IMG/VR virus record: IMGVR_UViG_3300010885_016539
Span: 1-30,470 of that record
DNA length: 30,470 bases
Origin: a virus
Reading direction: 5' to 3' (one strand)
Of the stretch, positions 2,866 to 29,664 are shown piece after piece. How positions within the stretch are numbered: the stretch's first letter is position 1; each line of letters begins with the position of its first letter. Both the position numbers and the translations under genes were made by a program. The notes below the pieces were generated by a model. The model did no database searches, was not told the origin of the DNA, and saw only the letters and a list, made by a program, of their open reading frames with translations.

Positions 2866-3432
2866 ATGGCATCCGAAACCTTCTACAGCCCCAAAGCGCC
2901 CGTGCGTTATGCGCACCTGATCACCGCTGACCTCTACAAAGATAAGTGGAACTACAGCGTCGAATTGATCCTTGACGACGCCAACCCCAGTCACAAAGCG
3001 TTCCTGGCCAGGCTTGAGGCGGAGTTCGTGGCGCTGCATGGTGCCAAGCGTGAGCGCGCCAAAGGTGGCGAGCCGTGGGACAGCCTTGGCGAAGGCAAGA
3101 CCCGCGTCAGGTTCAAGACGCGTCGATTCGAGAACTCCGATGGAACCTTCAGCAAGGGGCCCCGGCTGGTTGACGCGAAGAAGCAACCCTGGAACGGCCA
3201 GGAAATCGGCAACGGTTCCGAGATGATCGTGGGCTTCACAATCCGCGACTGGACCGACGACGGCGCTGGTATTTCCCTGCTGCCCAAAGCGTGCCAGGTG
3301 GTCAACTACGTTCCCCGGGAAGACGCTGGCGAGCAAGTCGCCGAAGGCTTTGAGGAGCAAGAGGGCTACAGCGTGGCCCAGCCCTCCGGCTACGTCGATG
3401 AGTTCGCCAGCGATGAGGAGGCCCCCTTCTGA
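2866..3432 (+). CDS. Phage single-stranded-DNA-binding protein
   Basis: 188 residues from ATG 2866. The body resembles the T7 gp2.5/DUF2815-type phage SSB fold: an opening strand region (YAHLITADLYKDKWNYSVELIL), a helix with KAFLARLEAEF, then a basic beta-rich part (RVRFKTRRFENSDGTF, FTIRDW, GISLLPKACQVVNY). The last residues, DEFASDEEAPF, are a strongly acidic tail ending in phenylalanine. That is the protein-recruiting tip of bacterial SSB (ending PF) and of gp2.5. It would coat single-stranded DNA during phage replication or recombination and recruit partners through the tip. It lies seven bases after the ribbon-helix-helix gene and its TGA overlaps the next ATG. The frame extends upstream to 2830, but that part overlaps the previous gene and is not needed. 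Confidence 0.72.
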   Translation: MASETFYSPKAPVRYAHLITADLYKDKWNYSVELILDDANPSHKAFLARLEAEFVALHGAKRERAKGGEPWDSLGEGKTRVRFKTRRFENSDGTFSKGPRLVDAKKQPWNGQEIGNGSEMIVGFTIRDWTDDGAGISLLPKACQVVNYVPREDAGEQVAEGFEEQEGYSVAQPSGYVDEFASDEEAPF

Positions 3433-3584
3433 TGAGCTCCTTTGCCGCTCAGGTAGCGCTCAGTATCCTGCTGGCCGTCACTGCGCTAGTGGTGGCCCTG
3501 ATGCTCCCGCCCTATCCGGTGATCTGGGCGGTTGCCCTGTCGCTGGGCCTAATGGCGGTGATCACCTGCCCCTCGCCGCCGTAA
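3432..3584 (+). CDS. 50-residue double-membrane-segment protein
   Basis: This short frame starts at ATG 3432, sharing one base with the SSB stop, and ends at TAA 3582-3584, three bases before the sigma factor start. The product has two hydrophobic segments, about residues 7-25 (QVALSILLAVTALVVALML) and 29-46 (PVIWAVALSLGLMAVITC), separated by a PPYP turn, with almost no charge. Its position and tight spacing argue that it is translated. The family is not recognised. Size and topology would fit a small holin or a membrane partner of a neighbour, but the lysis-like enzyme is far away on the other strand, so no function is assigned. Confidence 0.5.
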   Translation: MSSFAAQVALSILLAVTALVVALMLPPYPVIWAVALSLGLMAVITCPSPP

Positions 3585-3587
3585 CCC

Positions 3588-4538
3588 ATGGCAGCCACCG
3601 GCGGCGACATGGTGACCCACTGGTTGGGGCAGGCCGGTCGGGTTCCGATGCTGACGCCGGCCGAGGAGATCCACCTCGGCGGCCTGGTGCGGGTCTGGCA
3701 GGACTGGGAGCCCGCGCCTGGCAAGGCCCCGCCAGCGGTCCGCAGGCGGGGCCTGCGGGCTAGGGATCGGATGGTCATGGCCAATCTGCGGCTGGTGGTC
3801 CACGTCACCCGCAAGGCTCGGCCGGGCCTGGGGGTGCACATTCCCGACGCCGATCTGCCCGACCTGCTCCAGGCCGGTGCGATCGGCCTCCAGCGCGGGG
3901 CGGAGAAGTTCGACCCGGCCCGGGGATACAGGTTCTCAACCTTTTGTTACTGGTGGATCCGCCAGGGGCTGAGCCGTCACGTTGACTGGCACGGTCGCAC
4001 CATCCGCGTTTCGACCGGAAAAACTGAGTTGCTGTCCAGGGCACGGAGGACCGCCGCGGCCTTGGCCGCCGAGATCGGCCGTGCCCCTACCCGGGCAGAG
4101 CTGGCGATTGTGCTTGACGTAAACCAGGCCGATCTCGATCACCTGCTGCTGGTGTCAGCCGGCTGCCATTCGCTTGACGCTTCACTGCCTGGCGATCGTG
4201 ATGGCAGCCCCTCGACATTGGGCGATCTGACGGCAGCCGCAGAGCTAGAGCCAGACCCCGAAGCCGACGAACTGCGGGAGCGGATGGCGGCACTGGACCC
4301 CATTGAGCAGCGGCTGATTACGGGCCGCTGGGGGCTGGATGGCCCGCCCCGCACCCTTGCCCAGCTGGCCTCTCAGGAGGCCATTTCTGTCGGGGAGGTC
4401 CGGAAGATGCTGGCCAATGCCATGGGCAAGCTGCGCAAGGAGCGCCCTAGTGAGACTGGCCTGGCCGCAGTTCTGCCAGCAACTCCCGGGCCTATTCCTC
4501 GTGCCTCGGTGCATACGGTTCAGCTAAGGCTTCTTTGA
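3588..4538 (+). CDS. Sigma-70-family RNA polymerase sigma factor, cyanobacterial primary/group-2 type
   Basis: 316 residues with the whole set of domains. Region 1.2 is at 9-40 (THWLGQAGRVPMLTPAEEI, like the cyanobacterial YLQEIGRVPLL motif). Region 2 is at 61-132 with the hallmark YRFSTFCYWWIRQGLSRHV at 114-132, followed by the RTIRV linker (137-141). Region 3 is about 148-200 (AEIGRAPTRAEL). Region 4 is 234-285 (LDPIEQRLITGRWGL, then ISVGEVRKMLANAMGKLRK as the -35-binding helix-turn-helix). It should bind core RNA polymerase and select promoters. It lacks the long region 1.1. Being the last gene of the early operon, it is a good candidate for the activator of the leftward late genes. This is not an ECF- or T4 gp55-type factor but a host-like one. 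Its 3' end overlaps the minus-strand gene ending at 4492. Confidence 0.9.
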   Translation: MAATGGDMVTHWLGQAGRVPMLTPAEEIHLGGLVRVWQDWEPAPGKAPPAVRRRGLRARDRMVMANLRLVVHVTRKARPGLGVHIPDADLPDLLQAGAIGLQRGAEKFDPARGYRFSTFCYWWIRQGLSRHVDWHGRTIRVSTGKTELLSRARRTAAALAAEIGRAPTRAELAIVLDVNQADLDHLLLVSAGCHSLDASLPGDRDGSPSTLGDLTAAAELEPDPEADELRERMAALDPIEQRLITGRWGLDGPPRTLAQLASQEAISVGEVRKMLANAMGKLRKERPSETGLAAVLPATPGPIPRASVHTVQLRLL

Positions 4539-4710
4539 TTTCCAACTCCTGCACCCGCGCCAGGGCCTGGCGGAGCAAGTGATCCATGGTGGTCAGATGG
4601 ACCAGCGCCGAATCCAGCCGGGCCTCCAGGTCGTGGCGGTGGAGCCGGGGGATCTCCCGGCGTGCGCGCTCCAACTCCAGCTGCCTGCTCAGACTGAGAT
4701 TCGGATCCAT
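4492..4710 (-). CDS. NblA-like small helical protein (tentative)
   Basis: 72 residues from the ATG at 4710 (an in-frame ATG at 4725 adds five residues). The sequence is almost all helix. Its pattern LSLSRQLELERARREI, then nine residues later an LEARL helix, then MDHLLRQAL, can be lined up without gaps with my memory of NblA proteins, which read LxLEQxFxLxxxxxxV, then REQAxxxL, then KDNxxRxLL. NblA is a small protein of cyanobacteria and some cyanophages that directs phycobilisome breakdown. The charged C-terminal tail is not part of that family. GC-rich third positions support coding. It is the last leftward gene and overlaps the sigma factor's end by 47 bases. It could instead be an unrelated two-helix protein. 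Confidence 0.5.
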   Translation of the reverse strand: MDPNLSLSRQLELERARREIPRLHRHDLEARLDSALVHLTTMDHLLRQALARVQELEIKEALAEPYAPRHEE

Positions 4711-4723
4711 CCGCCAGCCGTCC

Positions 4724-4930
4724 ATGACCGAGCACGATCAGAGTCCCCAGTCTGATGAAGGCACCCTGCGGGCCTCAGTCGATGCCGATGGCGGCTGCTG
4801 CTGGGAGATCTGCGGCGGCGGGGAGTGCCTGCGGGACCGCAGCCGGGCGGAGCTGTTGCGCCGGTGGTCAGTCCGTCAGGACGGGAAAGGCTCCGGTCCA
4901 GCCGCGCTCGCTGTCGAGGAACCTGAGTAG
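4724..4930 (+). CDS. Small Cys-rich unknown protein
   Basis: 68 residues from ATG 4724. The N-terminus is acidic and polar (MTEHDQSPQSDEG). The centre has DADGGCCWEICGGGECLRDR, with four cysteines in a CCx3Cx4C-like arrangement, then a helix (SRAELLRRW). Third codon positions are strongly GC, as in the neighbours, which supports translation. It runs rightward against the late genes: its start touches the minus-strand ORF start (CATG at 4723-4726) and its end overlaps the metallophosphoesterase 3' end by 63 bases. No family is recognised; a metal-binding small protein is possible. Confidence 0.4.
   Translation: MTEHDQSPQSDEGTLRASVDADGGCCWEICGGGECLRDRSRAELLRRWSVRQDGKGSGPAALAVEEPE
4738..4755 (+). 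repeat. Inverted repeat, family TCAGnCT-n4-AGyCTGA
   Basis: TCAGAGT-CCCC-AGTCTGA has 7-base arms with one mismatch around a C-rich 4-base centre. It lies at codons 5-11 of the small Cys-rich ORF, in the same reading phase as the copies at 1864 and 2663. Confidence 0.45.
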
Positions 4931-6019
4931 CTGCTGGGGGCGCTCCGGCGCGAAGCCCAGCTTGAGGCCATAGGCGGTGGGGCCGATCAGCGAGCCATTC
5001 ACCGACCAGCCGGTGCCCATGGTGAGCTGGTGGAAGTGGCCGAAGAATGAATGATCTGCGGCGATGCCCTGATCCTGCCGGAGCTGCCATTTCGTCAGCG
5101 GCACGGTCAGCCCGCCAATGCCGCCCTGATAGCGGATGGCATCGCCATGGTGAAAGCGCAGCAGCCGGCCGAGGACCTCGACATAGAGAATGTTGCCGTC
5201 GCTGATATGCCATTCGATGCGCGGCTCATGCCTGTAATGGCGCCGCAGGCTCTGATACATCAGCCACTCGTAGCTGGTGGCGTGGGCGTTGTCGGCCTGC
5301 ACCTTGGGGGTGGTGCGCCCGTGGTTGCCGTAGCTGCAGGGGATCACGATGCGATCAAATGCGCCGTGCTCCAGCAGGTGATCGATGCCGGCCACAATGG
5401 CGCGCTCGCATTCGATGATCTGCTGGGTGGGCGATAGCTCTTGGGTCTGGGCCTGCTCGGGGTGCAACCAGTTGTCGATCAGATCCCCGCCCAGCCAGAG
5501 CACCATCTGCCGAACGTCGCAGCTGCTCCGCACCATGCGGATCACCTTCAGGGCATTGACGAACAGGGCCCGGGCTCGCCGGTGAAACTCGTCAACGTCG
5601 TAGGCGTTCAGTTGGTTCACCGATTCCGCGCGCACCACGGCGCCGCAGTGCCAGTCAGAGCACAACAGGATCGGGACCGATTCGGACCTGGGGCCATGGT
5701 GGCGATCGCTCAGCGGCTCGGGCTGCTCAATCTCTCGGATGTCCAGGGCCGTGCTGAGCGAATCCATCGTGTTGGCCAGCTCCGCCAGGGCGCGGTCCCG
5801 ATCGCGCTCGGCAGATCTGGCCAGCTCCTTGGCCTTGCGGAGCTCCAGCTGCAGCGCCAGTAGCTCGTCGCTGGTGTCGCTGCGCTTGCCATTGGGGCAC
5901 ATGCCCGGAGCGCAGAACGGCCGGCGCGTGCCCGTCTCGTCTTGCCATTCAATCGCGCTCTCTGGCAGCCAGGCCCGACAAGCCTTGTTACGCCGACACT
6001 GCCAGGTGCGCTCGCTCAT
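4868..6019 (-). CDS. Calcineurin-like metallophosphoesterase with N-terminal Cys cluster and coiled coil
   Basis: 383 residues. The two-metal phosphoesterase motifs are all present in order: SDWHC (D122, H124), GGDLID (D179), YGNHGR (N232, H233), FHHGD (H290, H291) and GHFH (H328, H330). The family cleaves phosphodiesters (nucleases such as SbcD/Mre11) or phosphoproteins. The nuclease branch is the likelier one in a phage, but the substrate is not shown. Residues 8-41 hold C8, C14, C36 and C41, a probable zinc ribbon. Residues 50-110 are a charged coiled coil. The gene lies at the distal end of the late operon and its ATG overlaps the stop of the preceding lysis-position gene by four bases. 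It may act in DNA processing, host DNA degradation or defence evasion. Confidence 0.8.
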   Translation of the reverse strand: MSERTWQCRRNKACRAWLPESAIEWQDETGTRRPFCAPGMCPNGKRSDTSDELLALQLELRKAKELARSAERDRDRALAELANTMDSLSTALDIREIEQPEPLSDRHHGPRSESVPILLCSDWHCGAVVRAESVNQLNAYDVDEFHRRARALFVNALKVIRMVRSSCDVRQMVLWLGGDLIDNWLHPEQAQTQELSPTQQIIECERAIVAGIDHLLEHGAFDRIVIPCSYGNHGRTTPKVQADNAHATSYEWLMYQSLRRHYRHEPRIEWHISDGNILYVEVLGRLLRFHHGDAIRYQGGIGGLTVPLTKWQLRQDQGIAADHSFFGHFHQLTMGTGWSVNGSLIGPTAYGLKLGFAPERPQQLLRFLDSERGWTGAFPVLTD

Positions 6020-6762
6020 CTGCTTTCCTGCCAGACCGAGACGTAGACGGTCCCCAGTTCGGTCAGGGGGAGCAGCAGATCCCTGAGGTCCCGGTTGTGC
6101 ATCCGGATGCAGCCGAGCGTGGGGTGCAGCGGCTGCAGCGGCAGCCAGGCACCAGGCCAGCCGCAGGCACTGCCGCCGCCGTGGATCATGATCCCGTCGC
6201 GGCCGTCCCGACTACCTGGCCCCTCCTGCCCCTCAAGGCCGAGCAGGTCAAACGAGAACCACCCGTAGGCCCGGCGATCCGCGCTGAACGTGGTGCTGGG
6301 GTCGTCCTCGTAATCCCGGTATATGGCGCCGATCTGATAGAGCCCCGGCGGGGTATCGCTGTTGCGGGATCGCCAGTCGGTCTCGGTTGACTGGCCCCGG
6401 GCCAGCGCTGCCACCCGCCAGATCTGCCGCCCCTTGTGGTCGAACGCGGCGATCGTCTCGGCCCGGTCATCCACGACCAGGTGGTGGTCGCCGGGCTTGA
6501 GATCTGGCCGCCGCTTTGGTCCCACCATCCCAACCCGTTGGGGCTCGGCCGCCGGTGGCGGTTTGATCGGGCTGGATGGTGCCGGGGGCGCCGCGGCCGG
6601 GCTGCCGGCGGCTCTCCAGTCGATCGTGAACGCCCGCCGCTGCTCAGGCGTGAGAGCCTGATCCAAGGCGGAGAAAGCGGCCAGCTGATGGGGGAGCAAC
6701 TGGCCACGCTTGGCCACCTCCTGGGCGGCGTCGCGGACTGAGGCGAGGGTGGGGGAGGCCAT
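6016..6762 (-). CDS. L,D-transpeptidase (YkuD-fold) peptidoglycan enzyme, candidate lysis protein
   Basis: 248 residues. The C-terminal half is a YkuD domain: PPGLYQIGAIY, DGIMIHGGG (His194) and HPTLGCIRMHN (Thr215, Cys218, Arg220) give the catalytic His and Cys and the conserved xGCxR box. These enzymes form or cut peptide cross-links in peptidoglycan through a cysteine thioester. The N-terminal part (1-50) has an ALTPEQRRAFTIDWRAA helix motif shared with the early gene at 1580, followed by a Pro/Ala linker (52-75). There is no signal peptide. It lies directly after the tail fibre gene, where lambda-like phages often carry host-lysis genes, so a role as endolysin or wall remodeller is inferred. 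No other free endolysin is seen in the window. Confidence 0.78.
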   Translation of the reverse strand: MASPTLASVRDAAQEVAKRGQLLPHQLAAFSALDQALTPEQRRAFTIDWRAAGSPAAAPPAPSSPIKPPPAAEPQRVGMVGPKRRPDLKPGDHHLVVDDRAETIAAFDHKGRQIWRVAALARGQSTETDWRSRNSDTPPGLYQIGAIYRDYEDDPSTTFSADRRAYGWFSFDLLGLEGQEGPGSRDGRDGIMIHGGGSACGWPGAWLPLQPLHPTLGCIRMHNRDLRDLLLPLTELGTVYVSVWQESR

Positions 6763-11003: not shown

Positions 11004-11605
11004 GCCGCCACCTGATCCACGTCGATTGCGGCGGAGATGACCACAGAGCCCACGATCACTTCGCCAAATATCACGGGAACCGGCAGCCCTTGGCGGCTTG
11101 TGTTTTGAATACCTGAGAAGCTGAAGTTTTTACGCGGGTCGTTCTCGTCTGGCCTGGCAGCGTTTGCGCTGGCCATGGCCGCTGTTGCGCCTGGGCCTGC
11201 TATGCGCGGCACGGGGGTGAGCAGCTGGGCCACGCCGCCGAGGGCCAGGCTGGCGCCGACGCCGGTGATCAGGGAGAAGGCGAGCGGCCCCAGCCAAGGC
11301 TGACCGATGACGAAGGCAGCCGCCACCAACGCCACCCCGGCCACGATCCGCCCCACGGCGCCAGCACCGCCGATCACCGGCACGATGGCAATGTCTGAGC
11401 CGCCGGCCGGTTCGTGCAGCTCCTCAGCGTCAAGAGCCCGAGCACCGATGCTCACGCGATAGTGCTGATCCGCCATGTGCTTCTCCACCTGGGGGAAGTT
11501 GGCCAGCAGGAATCGCACGGCCTCGGCAGCGCTGGCCACCTCAGCGCGGAACGTGCGGCGCTTCAGGAACTTCGCCAGCCGGCCGTAAATGCGGATGGTC
11601 CTCAT
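11000..11605 (-). CDS. I: Tail assembly protein I (lambda family)
   Basis: 201 residues from the ATG at 11605, which overlaps the stop of gene K by four bases. The frame also has a start ten codons upstream at 11635, but that lies inside gene K. The N-terminal 90 residues are ubiquitin-like as in lambda I (MRTIRIYGRLAKFLKRRTF, AAEAVRFLLANFPQ). Next is a Gly/Ala-rich hydrophobic middle with about two membrane-like segments (GRIVAGVALVAAAFVIGQPWL, GPLAFSLITGVGASLALGGVAQLL). The C-terminal segment PVPVIFGEVIVGSVVISA is the conserved end. In lambda, I helps assemble the tail tip but is absent from finished tails. Confidence 0.85.
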   Translation of the reverse strand: MRTIRIYGRLAKFLKRRTFRAEVASAAEAVRFLLANFPQVEKHMADQHYRVSIGARALDAEELHEPAGGSDIAIVPVIGGAGAVGRIVAGVALVAAAFVIGQPWLGPLAFSLITGVGASLALGGVAQLLTPVPRIAGPGATAAMASANAARPDENDPRKNFSFSGIQNTSRQGLPVPVIFGEVIVGSVVISAAIDVDQVAA

Positions 11606-12315
11606 GGCCTCAGTCTGCCGACCCAGCCGGTGCACTTCTGCAGCCAGCCGCCGTACACGTCCCTGCTCGACAACCTGCCCCGAAGGTGATGCAGCAGCAG
11701 CTGATCACCGACGTAAACGCCGACGTGATTGAGCCTGGCGTTGCTGATTGCCATCAGCACGGCGTCGCCCTCCTGCATGTCGGCCGGGTCGATCTGCTGG
11801 AACCCAGCCTCTTGCCATAGGGCCTCAAACATCGGCGCCGCCTCGAAGTCGTCGGGCCTGGCAGGCCGCTGCCAGTCCGGCAGGGTGGTGCCCTGCTCGG
11901 CGTACCAGTCGCGTACCAGCGTCCAGCAGTCCTGCGCACCCCAGACCCATTCCCGGCCGATCAGCGGGGCCTTATAACCGCAGGGTTCCAGCTCGGCCCA
12001 CGCCTGGGTCTTCGGGTTGCAGATCAGCCACGGCAGGCCTGATACCTCGCACGCGGAGCGATCCGCAGGCGATGGCTCGGGCGGGGTGATCGGGTGCGAG
12101 TGAACCACCGCCAGCACCTCCCCGTCGTCTTCGGCCTGGCGGTAGTCGTCGGGATCAATGGTGAACATGTCCCCCGGCTCCTCAGCGATGTTGCGGCAGG
12201 GCCGGTAGACCTGCCGCCCCGTGACCACCAGCACCAGCCCGCAGGCCTCGCGGGGGTCGTCCTGCTGGGCATGGGCCAGGGCTTGGCCCCTAATGGTGTC
12301 GTCGATCTGAATCAC
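11602..12315 (-). CDS. K: Tail assembly protein K: JAMM protease domain plus NlpC/P60 peptidase
   Basis: 237 residues with two peptidase domains as in lambda K. Residues 1-115 are a JAMM/MPN metalloprotease-type domain: Glu23 in EACGLVLV and the HSHP-x8-PADRS motif (His72, His74, Asp85). Residues 118-237 are an NlpC/P60 cysteine peptidase: WGAQDCWTLV places the catalytic Cys130 and LNHVGVYVG the catalytic His197, with a further His pair at 209-210. The NlpC/P60 part can cut cell-wall peptides and may help DNA cross the wall. The start overlaps the end of gene L by four bases. Confidence 0.92.
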   Translation of the reverse strand: MIQIDDTIRGQALAHAQQDDPREACGLVLVVTGRQVYRPCRNIAEEPGDMFTIDPDDYRQAEDDGEVLAVVHSHPITPPEPSPADRSACEVSGLPWLICNPKTQAWAELEPCGYKAPLIGREWVWGAQDCWTLVRDWYAEQGTTLPDWQRPARPDDFEAAPMFEALWQEAGFQQIDPADMQEGDAVLMAISNARLNHVGVYVGDQLLLHHLRGRLSSRDVYGGWLQKCTGWVGRLRP

Positions 12316-17157: not shown

Positions 17158-17178
17158 TCAGGCTCGGGAGTCTGATCA
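17158..17178 (-). repeat. 21-base exact copy of the repeat at 2660-2680
   Basis: The minus strand here is identical over 21 bases to the plus strand at 2660-2680. It overlaps the tail tube stop codon and fills most of the short gap before gene G. The inner 18 bases (17158-17175) form the imperfect inverted repeat TCAGACT-CCCG-AGCCTGA. Confidence 0.75.
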
Positions 17179-18111
17179 AGTCAGCGCAAGGCTGAACTCG
17201 TTGTTGCCGGCCGTGGTGGGCAACGCGACGTAGGGGAGATTGAGCATCATCACGCCGTCGGAATCCCCGTAGGTCGGGTTATTCAGGTCAGCCTGAGCAG
17301 CGGTGAACACCACGCGGTTACCGGCGGTGGTGCCATGGGTGAAGGTCAGGTTGCCGGTGGCGGAGTTGTTGGCGGCGGTGAAGTAATCCTTGGTGGCGAT
17401 CGGCACGGATTCGATCATCACCTGGCCGGCGGGCTTGCGGTCGGTGATCAGGATCTCTCTCGTGCAGCCGATCAGCTCGCGGTAGACCATCTCATTGGCC
17501 AGGGCAAACGAGAACGACGACAGACAGCCGGAGTAGCTGAACAGACTGAACGACGTGGTGTTGCCCTGGGTGAAGGCCAGCGGGTCGGCCTGGCCGCCGT
17601 AGGTCACGGCGCCCACTGCAGTATCGGTGGGGGCGTTGTAGACGCCCATGCCGCTGAAGGCGATAACCGGGATCTGGCCCACTTCACCCCTGATCTCAAA
17701 GGTGCCGCGCCAGCCGGTGACAGCGTGCCGGATGCCATCGGCGAAGTAATAGATCGTCGCGCTGCCGAAGCTGGAGCTCACCGGCGCATAGGTCACGGAG
17801 GTGGACGCCACGGTGGTGGCAGCAGTCCCGCAGGCCAGCATGGCGGCGCCCCAGCGAGGGGCAGTGCCAGCGGCGCCGCTGCCAGCCAACTCCACCTCAA
17901 AGTTGCATTGAACCTTCAGGTTCGTGAGCAGCTGGGGGGAGTTGCCCAGGTATGGGCGGATCAGATCACGGCTCACCAAATCCGCGTCAATCGGCGACAC
18001 GTCGATGCTGCGGACGGTCAGGGCATCAGCTGCGCCGGTCGGCACCGAATCGGTGCCATAGACGGACTCAGCCTTGATCAGGATGGTCCGCTTTCTCGTC
18101 AGGAAGGGCAT
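17176..18111 (-). CDS. Major tail tube protein
   Basis: 311 residues. The start MPFLTRKRTILIKAESVYGTDSVPTGAADAL is the usual opening of siphophage tail tube proteins. The following strands, with RPYLGNSPQLLTNLKVQCNFEVELAGSG and IYYFADGIRHAVTGWRGTFEIRGEVGQIPVIAFSGMGVY, match the beta-sandwich tube fold. It is the V-equivalent: right after the tail terminator and before the G/GT chaperones. The ATG lies inside the 3' end of the 57-residue gene at 18068-18241 (44-base overlap). Confidence 0.85.
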   Translation of the reverse strand: MPFLTRKRTILIKAESVYGTDSVPTGAADALTVRSIDVSPIDADLVSRDLIRPYLGNSPQLLTNLKVQCNFEVELAGSGAAGTAPRWGAAMLACGTAATTVASTSVTYAPVSSSFGSATIYYFADGIRHAVTGWRGTFEIRGEVGQIPVIAFSGMGVYNAPTDTAVGAVTYGGQADPLAFTQGNTTSFSLFSYSGCLSSFSFALANEMVYRELIGCTREILITDRKPAGQVMIESVPIATKDYFTAANNSATGNLTFTHGTTAGNRVVFTAAQADLNNPTYGDSDGVMMLNLPYVALPTTAGNNEFSLALT

Positions 18112-18241
18112 CGGTCGGCTCGTTGGGGTTGGGAGCAGGAGCGGTGCGGGCGATCAACGTCCGCTGGCCGGTCTTCGGGTCGAGCAGGTATTCCCCGCCC
18201 TGTCCGTCGAACTCATCTGTGATCAGGCTAGGAACCTTCAT
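18068..18241 (-). CDS. 57-residue small protein overlapping the tail tube start
   Basis: The ATG at 18241 overlaps the stop of the tail terminator by four bases (ATGA) and the TGA at 18068-18070 lies 44 bases inside the tail tube gene. The product starts MKVPSLITDEFDGQGGEYLL, has DPKTGQRTLIARTA, and ends Pro- and Asp-rich. The start-stop overlap on the upstream side and the tight gene packing argue that it is translated. Family not recognised; it is too short and acidic to predict a fold. It could also work mainly to couple translation of terminator and tube. Confidence 0.5.
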   Translation of the reverse strand: MKVPSLITDEFDGQGGEYLLDPKTGQRTLIARTAPAPNPNEPTDALPDEKADHPDQG

Positions 18242-18657
18242 TGGGTCAGATCTTCGGTGCGGGTCCTGAATCGGACGTTGTAGCTCAGGCTAAGGATGCC
18301 GATCTCGCCAGGCTCGCCCCTCCATTCCGTGGGGCCTTGGTCGATCGAGTGGGTGAGGCCGCCGAGGGTGCGATCAGCCATTAGGCGGGCGTGGGCATCC
18401 ACCCGGATCGGATCAGCCAGGGCCGACAGCGGTGATCCGCTGATCAGGATGTCTACCGCAACGGTCAGGGTGTAGTCGGTGAAGGGGATGGAGACGACGC
18501 CGGGCTCTTCGCCGATTGGATCCAGGGAGATGCAAGGCATCTCGTTGCGGGCCTGGGCTTCCCAGCGATCCCGGAACACCCGGGAGCTGATGCCAGCCGT
18601 GGGGGCGAGGGCTGTGGCGATCGCCGCCAGGATCCGCTCAGACTTGCTCAGCGTCAC
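18238..18657 (-). CDS. Tail terminator / minor tail protein U-like
   Basis: 139 residues. Elements such as RILAAIATALAPTAGISSRVFRDRWEAQARNEMPCISLDP, YTLTVAVDILISG and ADPIRVDAHARLMAD follow the pattern of lambda U and related tail terminators, a small alpha-beta protein that forms a ring capping the tail tube and joining it to the head. Position directly upstream of the tube protein supports it. The start is a GTG overlapping the stop of the preceding small membrane gene by four bases. Confidence 0.75.
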   Translation of the reverse strand: MTLSKSERILAAIATALAPTAGISSRVFRDRWEAQARNEMPCISLDPIGEEPGVVSIPFTDYTLTVAVDILISGSPLSALADPIRVDAHARLMADRTLGGLTHSIDQGPTEWRGEPGEIGILSLSYNVRFRTRTEDLTQ

Positions 18658-18866: not shown

Positions 18867-19159
18867 GGCTTCACCTCCCGTTGCTCAATGGCAACCGGGA
18901 TCACAAGCCTGAGCGTGATCCAGCTGCCCACGACCGGGAGGAGCATTGCAAGGACGGCGCCAAGGATCACGACCTGAGCCATGCGGCTCTCCAGCGCGCG
19001 CTGGCGGACAAGCAGGCTGTTGAGGTCTCCATTGATCCGCACCATGTCTTCCTTCCGCTCGGCCATAATCGCCAGGATTGAATCGATCTTGGCGCCCAGC
19101 TCTGCCAGGCGAACGTAGATCTCGCGGTGCGAAACGTCTTCCGGCGCCATGGGGCTCAT
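18863..19159 (-). CDS. Coiled-coil plus single membrane segment protein (XhlA-like topology)
   Basis: 98 residues. Residues 8-62 are a long amphipathic helix (REIYVRLAELGAKIDSILAI, then INGDLNSLLVRQRALESRM), followed by one membrane segment at about 63-88 (VVILGAVLAMLLPVVGSWITLRLVI) and a short charged tail. The heptad helix followed by a C-terminal membrane anchor is the layout of XhlA lysis factors and of several holin-associated proteins. It lies between the second chaperone-like gene and the small membrane gene, overlapping the latter by four bases. The L,D-transpeptidase is 12 kb downstream, so a lysis role is only a possibility. Confidence 0.5.
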   Translation of the reverse strand: MSPMAPEDVSHREIYVRLAELGAKIDSILAIMAERKEDMVRINGDLNSLLVRQRALESRMAQVVILGAVLAMLLPVVGSWITLRLVIPVAIEQREVKP

Positions 19160-19178
19160 CAGGCTGCTCTCAGTCTGC

Positions 19179-23500: not shown

Positions 23501-23951
23501 GCGTGCGAAGCGGTTCACCCGGGCTGGTGCCGTTGTTGGCATCGTTGCCGCTGGGGGAGACGTAAACCCGATTCGCGTCACGAAACGCGGTCAGCGCCTC
23601 CAGCACATTCCAGCGAACGGCCTGCGCTGTCCACGCCCGGCGCGTGGTGCCAGTGCCAGCCCTGGCCTCCACCTCCGTGGCTGTCGCGGCGGTCCATTCG
23701 CGTGCGTTGCTCACTGAGGCGTCGCTCGTTGACACCTTGTTGCTCAGCGCCGCCAGGGTGGCTGAGCTGAGCGGTTTATCGGCGTCGCTGGTGTTATCGA
23801 CACTGCCGAGGCCCACCGTGGTCTTGGTCGCCAGGTTGGCGATTGCCTGCGTGCTCGCGTCAACGGTGGTCGCGCCCTGATCCATCGGCACCCGCTCCGA
23901 GCCCGTCAGGATCGTTGCATTGGGTAGCCCTGAAATTGTGATGTCGGCCAT
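20580..23951 (-). CDS. Large tail fibre with parallel beta-helix (pectate-lyase-like) domain
   Basis: 1123 residues. The N-terminus (ITISGLPNATILTGSERVPMDQ) is a fibre attachment type region. Residues about 125-400 begin with VYVSPSGNDANNGTSPGEPLRTLAAA, the hallmark of DUF1565/pectate-lyase-like beta-helices. Two similar units at about 515-575 and 615-690 share HEYVxGGTVxxGGTxY and LxFIC, an internal duplication. Residues about 750-830 (SHTFEYVGSGTNYNALPWNGG, TDELGNFAVGTQFTVD) resemble a module I recall from virion proteins of T4-like cyanophages. Near 945, AGAMSSSDKAKLDGIASGA is a common tail-fibre motif. No obvious enzyme residues are seen. It probably binds the host envelope; starts right after a 103-base gap. 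Confidence 0.75.
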   Translation of the reverse strand: MADITISGLPNATILTGSERVPMDQGATTVDASTQAIANLATKTTVGLGSVDNTSDADKPLSSATLAALSNKVSTSDASVSNAREWTAATATEVEARAGTGTTRRAWTAQAVRWNVLEALTAFRDANRVYVSPSGNDANNGTSPGEPLRTLAAAAAAAQPGNLVVVGSGTYTEAALPIRWKRNIGLLCSGLRNTTVGPAAGQEMKDIFKVDSGFWCWGLEFAGHQANSATGDLSWAISFNELADNRGIGAVGLGAYILKSPYIQNCSSITAEDDSGTAGSVSTGDTGGGILVDGSKCAANSPIRSMVVDSYTQVNLGGPGCLVTNDGYAQLVSFFGTFCQYHVKTLTGGQVNLSGGGTSDFGIYGLVADGYSPRPVFTGKSRVSKFGAARIEKAVTINDTTNTFTCTAHGLSANDQVVFQASMGTLPAPLATGAVYFVRSASLTADTFTISATSGGSILDITEPGVGTYAVIRQGVTEVDVIGFSANRLGRQIKYPTAGSLGASGRPVTISAASGTTFAITLDTSAIAHEYVGGGTVTVGGTSYDVVAATYNNTTGATTVRATGYTPTVGASVTLAGLSFICNSSSRPNAGQLMFPQLVFPRNASTGAAESKTFTYTRTSVYTFTYTEAASPSGPDHEYVSGGTVAIGGTDYGVAGAVYDKTSGLTTITTVTALPGASTGSVTVNGLAFICPTSGYIVTSSVPIDASGNTVANDSNSRAGYRVQFFSGTNGGLKNSLAVDQTLDFRQRSQISAPSHTFEYVGSGTNYNALPWNGGVPIPANKIVETNNGRVYSSNTDELGNFAVGTQFTVDGTSGTVTINTDQFNLSGLNFIGPFSRNGGISTVGEQLREVSNNTSLYASTGAADGNTAPTQFAVKTYADNKFLQAVTTTAGQPISVSDTSTVDAQGFQTRNRNITLSLNVANGLVRLDGSALVPVALLPAATTLAAGAMSSSDKAKLDGIASGATGFSEAQVRSTVLTGYASGAGTITAADSVLSAIQKLNGNVAQATQWNLRQTVTAASGTYALDVTAASEFVTAAAIAGTTTINLSNLASIPTNYVWRGVLSFSYTSGTINWFAGNSGYSVRWDGGSAIAPTASEVEKVVIEVVGGSTVIEVAALKGRAA

Positions 23952-24054
23952 GGTTCAGGCTAGAAAGTCAGAGCGTGATCAGTCGTGCCGTTGATCGCGG
24001 CCACATCATGGCGATGAACTGTGCTCAGGCTAGGCAGGCTGAACCTTTGGCGCC
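23952..24054 (-). promoter_or_regulatory. 103-base gap with two TAGCCT motifs (candidate internal late promoter)
   Basis: One of the larger gaps in the late arm. On the minus strand, CTAGCCTGAACC ends directly before the fibre ATG (TAGCCT at 23957-23962). Another CTAGCCTGAGC lies about 70 bases further upstream (24024-24034), inside the inverted repeat 24025-24042. TAGCCT fits the minimal TAnnnT -10 box, but no clear -35 box is present, and the nearer one would give an almost leaderless mRNA. Confidence 0.3.
24025..24042 (-). repeat. Inverted repeat, family TCAGnCT-n4-AGyCTGA
   Basis: Minus strand TCAGCCT-GCCT-AGCCTGA: 7-base arms with one mismatch and a 4-base centre containing CC, as in the copies at 1864, 2663 and 17158. 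It lies in the gap between the chaperone-like gene A and the large fibre gene. Confidence 0.5.
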
Positions 24055-27560: not shown

Positions 27561-29627
27561 TCAGGCGCCGGTGGAGCGGTAGATGAATCGGTAGTCCTTC
27601 ACTGCGCAGCCGAAGTCGAAGCGGGCCAGCAGGGTCAGGCCATCAGGATCCCGCTCAGTCACGGGGGTGATGGTCGGGCCGGGCTCGTCAGCCAGGTAGC
27701 CGTACACCAGGCCTTCCACTTTGCTGGGGGCAGAAGCGGCGTACCACTGGGTGGCGGAACCATCAAGGCGGGGCTCGACGATCAGCTGCATGGCACCGGC
27801 ATAAACGTTGGGGCCGGCTGCTCCGGTCAGCGCTGCAGGGGCGTAGCCGGTGGGATAGAGGAACTGCAGGGCAGTCGCTTCCAGATCGGTGGGAACGATC
27901 AGGTAGTCGGGGGTCAGGTTGACGGTGACACCCGAGATGTCCGTTTGCTTGCGCATGGCCTTCTTCGCGGCGTTGACACCAGCGATGCCAATCGCGCCGG
28001 TGCCGGTGTTGTTGTGGCCAGCGGCAAACAGGGCCTGACCGTCAACGGAGACGGTGGCGTTGCTGGTGATCTGGGCCCAGATCAGGTTGGACTCAAGGCG
28101 GCGGAAGCCGCGACCCAGATACTCAGGCGTGCGCTCCAGGGCGGACAGATCATCGTTAATTATCGCTTGCCTCGAAATCGTTACTTTGCGAGCATAAGTA
28201 GCGAGTTTCCAAGTAGCTTGCGCCTCCGTAAGTGTGCCTTTCTGGTATTCACCGCCTTCAAGCAGGGCCAGTGGGGCCAGGTCCGCGGCCAGAATCAGAT
28301 CCGTGCTTTGCTTGAAATCCGGGAGATTCTGCTGACGGGCGAGGGGCTTCCAGGTGTGGGGCTCTTCCTCATAGGCAGCGGTCAGGGTCTTGCCGGCCAG
28401 GTTGCTGAACAGCAGCGGGAAGTCCGACGTGCTGTGCATGGCCATCGCCACCAGATCGCTCTTAGAGCGGCCGGCGGTATTGATGCCGCGGCTCTCAGCG
28501 AAGATCCGCACGCACTCCATCAGGGAGTAGCCGCGATATTGCTTGCCAGCGTCGCCGATCTTGGCGCCGGGGTTGATGCGGGCTTCCAGCATCTCACCGA
28601 TGCCAGCCATCACCGAATCACCAGCGTCGCGGGTGACCTGGATACGGGCAGGGTGGCCAGCAGCACCAGCCCGGCCTTCGATCACCTGGGCGTGCGCGGT
28701 CACGATGTCCATGGCGACCTGGGCAAACGGCTTGCCGCCGTCAACCATGGCTTGCACCACATCAGCGGCCAGGCCGGCCGAGGCGGCACAGCGGCGGATG
28801 TCGGCTTCCCGGCGGAGGCCGGCGATGGTGGCGGATTCGGTGGAGGCGGCCACGGGCTGGGGAGCCTGAGCCTGGACGGTCACAGCCTCAGTCGCGGCGG
28901 CTGCCACGGGCTGCACCTCAGTGGTCGCGGCCGGTGCGCCCCCGGCCTGAGATTGCGAAGTCATTGGATTCAGGGAGGGATTGGGGTTTTCCTCTGGACT
29001 CAGACTAGGAAGTGCGGCCCAGCCCCTTAGCAGGGCGGCCTGGGCATTGGTGAAGCGACCGGCCGGGAACCGCGGCACGCTGGCGCGCACATCCACCGGG
29101 GCCACCACCTCATCGGCCAGGCCTGCTTCAACTGCGGCGGCTGCGGTGAAGCACGTCCCGGCGCCAGCGCCGGCGGCCATCCACTCATCTACCTGGGCCT
29201 CGGATGCGCCGGACTTGCGGGCGTAGGTCTGCCGGTAGCTGGCGCTGTAGGTGTCGAGCAGGTTGGCCGAAGTGCGCAGCGATTCGGCGTCGCCGGCTGC
29301 CAGGCTCCAGCAGTTGTGAATCATCATCAGGGCGTTGTCGGGCATCACCACCCGATCGCCAGCCATTGCCACCATTGAGCCAGCCGAGGCCGCGACGCCA
29401 TCGATGATCACAGTCTTCTTGCCGGGATAGCGGGCGAGGATGTCGTGGATGGCCAGGCCCTCCCCGGCGTCGCCGCCATAGCTGAACAGGTTGATCGTCA
29501 CGTCCCGGCCGCCGGTCTGCTCCAGGGCCCGGGCCACATCGGCGGCCAGCACGTCAATGCCCACATCTCCATAGAGCTGCAGGACCGGGGCGGTAATCGC
29601 CGCTTTCACCGTCACGCCGAGAGTCAT
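27561..29627 (-). CDS. ClpP-like head protease fused to the major capsid protein
   Basis: 688 residues. Residues 10-200 are a ClpP/S14-type serine protease: INLFSYGGDAGEGLAIHD, GVAASAGSMVAMAG with Ser81 as likely nucleophile, and MMIHN with His104. Residues about 205-330 are an Ala/Gln/Pro-rich linker and a helical, scaffold-like part (IAGLRREADIRRCAASAGL). Residues about 330-688 are the capsid protein (IFAESRGINTAGRSKSDLVAMAMHSTSDFPLLF, RKVTISRQAIINDDLSALERTPEYLGRGFRRLE, DEPGPTITPVTERDPDGLTLLARFDFG). Such fusions are known in phages; the protease removes itself and the linker in the procapsid. It starts 41 bases after the portal stop. Confidence 0.88.
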   Translation of the reverse strand: MTLGVTVKAAITAPVLQLYGDVGIDVLAADVARALEQTGGRDVTINLFSYGGDAGEGLAIHDILARYPGKKTVIIDGVAASAGSMVAMAGDRVVMPDNALMMIHNCWSLAAGDAESLRTSANLLDTYSASYRQTYARKSGASEAQVDEWMAAGAGAGTCFTAAAAVEAGLADEVVAPVDVRASVPRFPAGRFTNAQAALLRGWAALPSLSPEENPNPSLNPMTSQSQAGGAPAATTEVQPVAAAATEAVTVQAQAPQPVAASTESATIAGLRREADIRRCAASAGLAADVVQAMVDGGKPFAQVAMDIVTAHAQVIEGRAGAAGHPARIQVTRDAGDSVMAGIGEMLEARINPGAKIGDAGKQYRGYSLMECVRIFAESRGINTAGRSKSDLVAMAMHSTSDFPLLFSNLAGKTLTAAYEEEPHTWKPLARQQNLPDFKQSTDLILAADLAPLALLEGGEYQKGTLTEAQATWKLATYARKVTISRQAIINDDLSALERTPEYLGRGFRRLESNLIWAQITSNATVSVDGQALFAAGHNNTGTGAIGIAGVNAAKKAMRKQTDISGVTVNLTPDYLIVPTDLEATALQFLYPTGYAPAALTGAAGPNVYAGAMQLIVEPRLDGSATQWYAASAPSKVEGLVYGYLADEPGPTITPVTERDPDGLTLLARFDFGCAVKDYRFIYRSTGA

Positions 29628-29639
29628 TGCCTGATCGTC

Positions 29640-29664
29640 ACTGAGATCAGGCTACGGAGGGTGA
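29640..29664 (-). promoter_or_regulatory. TAGCCT motif upstream of the protease-capsid gene
   Basis: The minus strand has CCGTAGCCTGATC in the short gap before the protease-capsid ATG at 29627. TAGCCT would serve as a -10 box, with a leader of about 18 bases. It coincides with a degenerate copy (29647-29664, TCACCCT-CCGT-AGCCTGA) of the inverted-repeat family. No strong -35 box was found. Confidence 0.25.

Follow-up and report, generated by a model that had tools for sequence, protein, structure and literature searches.

The window, meaning the whole stretch of 30,470 nt analysed here, is an IMG/VR record of a phage that was also found in a 38,306-bp contig (L002/G001); across the shared 30,470 nt the two differ by one base, and the contig adds the 5′-end of the recombinase gene, TerS/TerL-like genes, and the remainder of the portal gene. 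Genes on the plus strand were arranged in the order recombinase, HTH protein, four or five small early genes, and sigma factor. The 3′ part of a serine recombinase gene lay at nt 2–604 (identified by Pfam; complete in L002 at nt 3284–4594, 436 aa), and nt 792–1520 encoded an HTH regulator, a candidate repressor whose match to Pfam HTH_31 scored 22.5 bits, below the cut-off of 27. Profile searches and synteny defined three early genes with no function assigned, at nt 1580–2251 (kept in relatives), 2248–2541, and 2649–2858; nt 2872–3432 encoded a putative ssDNA-binding protein with an acidic EEAPF end and no family match, and nt 3588–4538 a sigma-70 family factor. From nt 4868 on, all main genes were on the minus strand (exonuclease, L,D-transpeptidase, tail, capsid, portal, and terminase); the first convergent gene encoded a phosphoesterase/exonuclease (nt 4868–6019, phrog_284) and the next an L,D-transpeptidase domain protein occupying the endolysin place (nt 6016–6762, domain search). 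The late operon therefore runs towards the sigma gene and ends there. A preliminary description of this DNA had named sigma the last gene of an early operon, and this agrees with the arrangement found, since the genes from recombinase to sigma are on the plus strand and the next gene is on the minus strand. The sigma gene was convergent with the downstream late gene in 64 of the 65 scored loci; its place at the early/late junction, facing lysis and tail genes, is that seen in cyanosiphophage relatives.

The adjoining serine recombinase makes it plausible that the phage is a prophage. A close copy of the phage with this sigma was present in none of 400 genomes of a related host family, and no integrated copy was seen there; a single-protein scan of genome contigs with the sigma found no relative, and an alignment-based scan matched host group-2 sigmas and no prophage copy.

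The sigma gene (nt 3588–4538, plus strand, ATG start) encoded a protein of 316 aa, with region 1.2 at residues 7–34, region 2 at 62–132, region 3 at 147–211, and region 4 at 233–284, followed by a tail (residues 286–316) that was disordered in the AlphaFold model and ended in VQLRLL. Pfam scores for regions 2, 3, and 4 were 47.3, 30.0, and 28.9 bits, respectively, all above the gathering cut-offs, whereas region 1.2 was marginal (21.4 bits versus a cut-off of 22); the earlier claim that all four regions are present thus held for regions 2, 3, and 4 and fell just short for region 1.2. The motifs GRVPML and YWWIRQ, which had also been pointed out before, were located at residues 17–22 and 121–126, the latter within the -10 reader FSTFCYWWIRQ of region 2.3–2.4 (nt 3933–3965, from sequence and alignment). 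The top NCBIfam model was TIGR02997, a cyanobacterial RpoD subfamily (E value 7.8e-56), but the score of 189.5 bits missed the curated cut-off of 384.5 bits, which marks the protein as a diverged relative of that subfamily. PHROG 351, "RNA polymerase sigma factor", matched as well, and the nearest sequences with solved structures were cyanobacterial SigA proteins. In the AlphaFold model, built with 24 phage sigmas as the alignment, confident helices extended from region 1.2 through region 4, and the PDB matches were sigma subunits in initiation complexes. The intact ORF, the Pfam scores of regions 2 to 4, and the sigma fold confirm that the gene belongs to the sigma-70 family.

Homologous sigma genes, annotated as "group 2" or RpoD-like, occupy the same convergent place at the same junction in the cultured phages S-LBS1, S-CBS1, S-CBS3, and KBS-S-2A, of which S-LBS1 has an integrase. 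Sigma genes of S-LBS1, KBS-S-2A, and P-SS2 have been mentioned in papers, and P-SS2 has two (PMC2784084), so the belief that a sigma gene was new to temperate cyanosiphophages was mistaken; a description of a repressor-to-sigma cascade in them was not found in the literature searched. To the comparison were added 80 further IMG/VR loci. In a careful tree of 74 rows, from which region 4 was left out, the sigma of the window fell within a clade of 22 rows, all from phages, with 99/94 support and recovery in 98% of bootstrap trees. Picocyanobacterial group-2 sigmas surrounded the phage groups and SigA was placed outside them, which is how the phylogenetic check proposed in the preliminary description came out. 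Nearly all phage sigmas had a group-2 signature of the YAYWW/YAFWW type, not the YATWW of SigA, and the sigma of the window, of the YAYWW class, shared both this signature and the tree place outside SigA. A phage-only clade with a group-2 signature indicates a sigma lineage of group-2 type that is old in phages, and not a recent capture. The suggested group-2-type origin is thereby supported, a private acquisition by this phage is not, and recent capture from host SigA was ruled out because the YATWW class falls outside.

Host -35 reading residues, which we take to be R584, E585, R586, R588, and Q589 (E. coli numbering), were conserved at four or more of the five positions in 48 of 50 host sigmas and at no more than three (mostly none to two) in the window clade, in an analysis that, like that of the late motif below, was chosen after seeing the data. 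By alignment with host sigmas, SVGEVRK replaced TRERIRQ in the region 4.2 recognition helix segment of the window sigma (nt 4386–4406), R584, E585, R586, and Q589 being replaced and R588 alone kept. The host-type -35 reading residues of a cyanobacterial group 2 sigma are thus absent here except for R588. This helix varied widely within the clade (STRALES in S-LBS1), whereas the WWIRQ -10 reader was retained in nearly all members; the marine phages S-CBS1, S-CBS3, and KBS-S-2A retained the canonical -35 helix. Judged from the alignments, one new feature of the window clade is that the -10 reader is kept while the -35 reading helix is replaced. Having a replaced -35 helix and a new C-terminal tail, the sigma is not host-like as a whole, contrary to how it had been characterized.

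Beyond region 4, proteins of the window clade carried tails of 24 to 101 residues with divergent sequence, which often contained or ended in QLxL followed by L, F, V, or P. In the window this candidate sliding-clamp-binding-like motif was QLRLL at the very end (nt 4521–4535), compared with QLRLF in L013, QLSLF in the second sigma of L025, QLALF in L030, and QLVLPL in L021. QLxL[FLPVM] was present in 13 of 22 clade tails, against 0.26 on shuffling (with a maximum of 3 over 2000 rounds), and in none of 28 other phage sigmas or 24 host sigmas; a wider count gave 26 of 44, 1 of 36, and 0 of 129, respectively. The motif was missing in about 9 of the 22 clade members, and the S-LBS1 group had an imperfect form, QLVLV. 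Among 649 proteins of clade phages, 18 had it near the C-terminus, 12 of them sigmas. The bacterial clamp-binding consensus is QL[S/D]LF, and QLSLPL binds tightly (PMC12309361); by this resemblance, the QLxL(L/F) tail of sigma may hook to the host sliding clamp.

Upstream of the gene at nt 1580, an early promoter of the form TTGCGG-18-TATGCT was observed at nt 1524–1553 (TTGCGG at 1524–1529, an 18-nt spacer, and TATGCT at 1548–1553), with the palindrome CGGATCGGCGTACCGATCCG in the spacer (nt 1527–1546) as a candidate repressor operator, so that the palindromic promoter reported earlier is present. Seven relatives had the same layout at the same place, TTGn3-17/18-TAAGGT or TAAGAT, and several of them carried a spacer palindrome of differing sequence, the pattern that repressors of distinct specificity should produce. 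From its sequence, the early promoter with a palindrome in its spacer is predicted to be of the host type (TTGn3-18-TAn3T).

A different element was associated with the late genes. Repeats of TAGCCTGA were first noticed in intergenic gaps of the window contig, and the motif sample comprised forty regions taken from 20 additional phage genomes and, later, 11 more genomes, with genes called by one script. In an unbiased 7-mer search of late gaps, TAGCCTG ranked top in the window group (12 versus 0.36 expected) and in the third, remaining derived group (7 versus 0.48), and second in the S-LBS1 group (11 versus 1.0), behind its variant CAGACTG. TAGCCTG was missing from the top-ranked 7-mers both in early gaps and in phages that have other sigmas. 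Over the final set, the 60-nt windows preceding 523 late genes contained 33 copies of TAGCCTGA, where 0.5 were expected, and the windows upstream of 228 early genes contained none. Sixteen of the 19 clade genomes, and none of the 17 with other phage sigmas, carried the element upstream of late genes (Fisher 1.3e-7, the motif tests overstating independence since the compared genomes are related). Copies numbered 51 on the late strand versus 7 on the early strand; 34 of the 51 were at most 60 nt before a start (2.5 expected), at spacings of 11–12, 24–30, and 33–38 nt with peaks at 11–12, 26–27, and 35, and the variant CAGACTGA was similar (16 of 25 copies within 60 nt of a start). The element can be written as YAGMCTGA, mostly TAGCCTGA, and no conserved -35 was observed upstream of it, only a T at -4 and a C at -2 relative to its first T. 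Before shared late genes, YAGMCTG was found in 24 of 76 cases in the clade versus 0 of 26 outside; the gene after TerL, for instance, has it in front in S-LBS1 and not in S-CBS1 or S-CBS3. As a host control, 370 upstream windows (400 kb, Cyanobium sp. ATX 6A2) contained TAGCCTGA once. Sites per clade genome were few (0 to 6): in 3 of the 19 genomes no called late start was preceded by one, and a weak variant was all that L003 had. By these motif statistics, the genomes of exactly this sigma clade carry an 8-bp element before late genes, a further new feature.

In the window, five copies of TAGCCTGA (0.45 expected), every one on the late strand, and two of CAGACTGA were found by motif scan, all on the minus strand. 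Late -10-like sites TAGCCTGA were located in the gap before gene 17176–18111 (nt 18,223–18,230), 11 and 81 nt before the start at 23,951 (nt 23,955–23,962 and 24,025–24,032), and 27 nt before the head protease/capsid gene 27561–29627 (nt 29,647–29,654), with a further copy within the 3′-end of gene 18238–18657 (nt 18,285–18,292); sites CAGACTGA were 12 nt before the start at 11,605 (nt 11,610–11,617) and 18 nt before that at 19,159 (nt 19,170–19,177). With a -10 at 12 nt, the transcript start would fall on the ATG (leaderless), while a site at 24–30 nt leaves room for a Shine-Dalgarno sequence. The authors' annotation of S-LBS1 agrees, since the start of A03 (2520) is 11 nt past a site. Nothing on TANNNT or on transcription starts of cyanosiphophages was found in the literature searched. 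This clade-specific late-strand motif supports, from sequence, the probable role in late transcription that the preliminary description had assigned to sigma.

We favor, with a probability of roughly two in three, the reading that this phage sigma is of old picocyanobacterial group-2 descent and is dedicated to the late genes through the -35-less YAGMCTGA, its tail possibly serving the clamp. From the gene, its synteny and phylogeny, the helix change, the motif statistics, and the tail motif, we infer the following scheme. Host RNA polymerase would read the early genes, sigma being the last, from the host-type promoter TTGn3-18-TAn3T, whose spacer palindrome is likely a repressor operator with a presumed ligand. 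Once made, the phage sigma would take over core RNA polymerase and start the opposite late strand at YAGMCTGA, which would act as a -10/discriminator extended upstream by a short TYC and lacking a -35 box; for late promoters of this kind, region 4.2 would do without host-type -35 contacts. A main support for such a handover from host to phage sigma is that the early promoter has a -35 and the late ones do not. The C-terminal QLxL(L/F) may tether sigma to the host sliding clamp, like T4 gp55, which would couple late transcription to replication.

The gp55 protein of T4 carries a C-terminal clamp-binding epitope, preceded by a divergent linker, and T4 late promoters lack a -35 (PMC2988020, PMC7892883). 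The likeness to T4 (gp55, gp33, and the gp45 clamp) would comprise a late-specific sigma, 8-bp -10-only promoters, and a clamp-motif end on a divergent linker. The promoter trait, -10-like 8-mers without a -35, appears to be present here by sequence statistics, and the tail parallel is a resemblance of layout. However, gp55 consists of a region-2 domain only, without regions 3 and 4, whereas the window encodes a complete group-2 sigma in which region 4 is altered; its full regions 1.2–4 and siphophage genome place it outside the gp55 family. T4 also employs gp33 and a phage clamp, neither of which was seen in this phage, and the motif sequence differs. That a large clade of freshwater cyanosiphophages independently evolved the T4 late principle from a full-length group-2 sigma, with no -35, YAGMCTGA, a clamp hook, and a repressor-controlled sigma, is put forward tentatively, as a possibility somewhat on the doubtful side; if true, late genes would be read only from replicating DNA. 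Phages phiEco32 and 7-11 likewise have a phage sigma, a short promoter word of its own before structural genes, and early genes read by host sigma-70 (PMC4331800), but they are other phages of other hosts with a distant sigma, the motif TGATGT/TATA, and an anti-sigma factor; no anti-sigma factor was identified here. P-SS2 is a picocyanobacterial siphophage with group 2 and group 3 sigma genes, but its authors predicted ordinary sigma-70 promoters for the group-2 sigma, and its genome organization is different (PMC2784084). Among the cultured relatives, S-LBS1 shares the derived clade and the late motif with the window and has the tail QLVLV; S-CBS1, S-CBS3, and KBS-S-2A differ in keeping the host-type -35 helix and in having no TAGCCTGA before late genes.

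The same late element might instead be a promoter of host SigA, perhaps with a phage activator, leaving the phage sigma another or a supplementary role; TAGCCT fits a TAn3T -10, which is enriched before host genes too, but the single 8-mer among the 370 host windows and its absence from late upstream regions of the 17 other-sigma phages, orthologous genes included, make this unlikely. It is distinctly unlikely that sigma acts mainly on host genes, TAGCCTGA being read by something else. Metabolic reprogramming of this kind has a precedent, as expressing the S-CBS3 sigma and an RpoD-type sigma of S-CBS2 in Synechococcus elongatus raised acetyl-CoA (Sawa et al. 2019, reviewed in PMC10452541); against it, the place of sigma facing the late genes is conserved, and TAGCCTGA seldom precedes host genes, its distribution following that of the sigma clade.

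Very little probability is likewise given to YAGMCTGA being, instead of a promoter, an operator, a signal for translation, or a strand-biased word of the Chi type. The word contains TAG and TGA, some copies overlap stop codons of the preceding gene, and AGCCTGATCAGGCT would be palindromic; nevertheless, the strand asymmetry and fixed spacing to starts, the placement of copies either ahead of a Shine-Dalgarno-like stretch or at exactly one promoter length from an ATG, and the rarity of the reverse form in gaps speak for a promoter, and the strong spacing rules out a Chi-like word. A high-GC artefact was also rejected, as TAGCCTGA was absent before late genes in S-CBS1, S-CBS3, G038, G048, G058, and G059 (58–61% GC) and nearly absent in Cyanobium (69% GC). 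A reading of sigma as a host gene in decay, relaxed in region 4 and lacking any special function, would fit the highly variable region 4.2 helix, but is scarcely credible given ORFs intact across the clade at 38–64% identity, conserved core-binding and -10 segments, a region 4 well folded in the model, and retained synteny. Cyanophage sigma genes are usually listed as host-derived auxiliary genes with target not known; on the favored reading, that of a late-dedicated sigma, one large clade would gain a concrete target in an 8-bp late promoter whose occurrence follows the sigma lineage rather than the genes downstream of it, and S-LBS1, as a cultured member, makes this proposal testable.

Several further observations were made. 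The late strand of KBS-S-2A, G038, G048, and G049, whose sigmas have host-type helices, carried another -10-like word, CTAAACT, 26–35 nt before late genes (7 sites versus 1.0 expected in the final set) with no obvious -35; loss of the -35 contacts is thus not needed for -35-less late promoters. Two early-strand copies of TAGCCTGA, about 80 nt apart, lay outside the window (L002 1149–1156 and 1229–1236; window -2841 and -2761), preceding a small gene near the left end of the contig that is perhaps a late-expressed accessory gene. In S-LBS1 (L004), a candidate in-phase start at 4708 followed TAGCCTGA (at 4680) by 28 nt, a spacing matching that of the window capsid gene, and the annotated capsid start (4621) may be too early. 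Two different sigma genes were in tandem in L025 and L027 (6950–8933), the first with the canonical -35 helix SRERIRQ and the second of the derived clade with KPARVDG and the tail EQLSLFAA. Of the host sequences, the canonical-helix sigmas of Synechococcus lacustris (L149) and Synechococcus TMED19 (L167) lay nearest to the derived phage clade. The HTH regulator gene contained a run of 9–15 G close to its 3′-end in the window (nt 1485–1494) and in L003, L012, and L015, possibly a slippery or phase-variable site.

Loci in host genomes that share the early genes of this phage were considered as prophage copies of it and rejected, being mostly smaller elements with a primase-polymerase and a region-2 sigma fragment. 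Integrated elements of about 10 kb in Cyanobium-family genomes (L324, 2106–13588, and L313–L328) shared with the phage the early genes HTH, "1580", and "2649" next to genes for a primase-polymerase and an integrase, terminase-like genes, and one for a sigma-like protein limited to region 2, and have the appearance of phage satellites or remnants. A homologue of the "1580" gene was found in 37 of 201 Cyanobium-family genomes.
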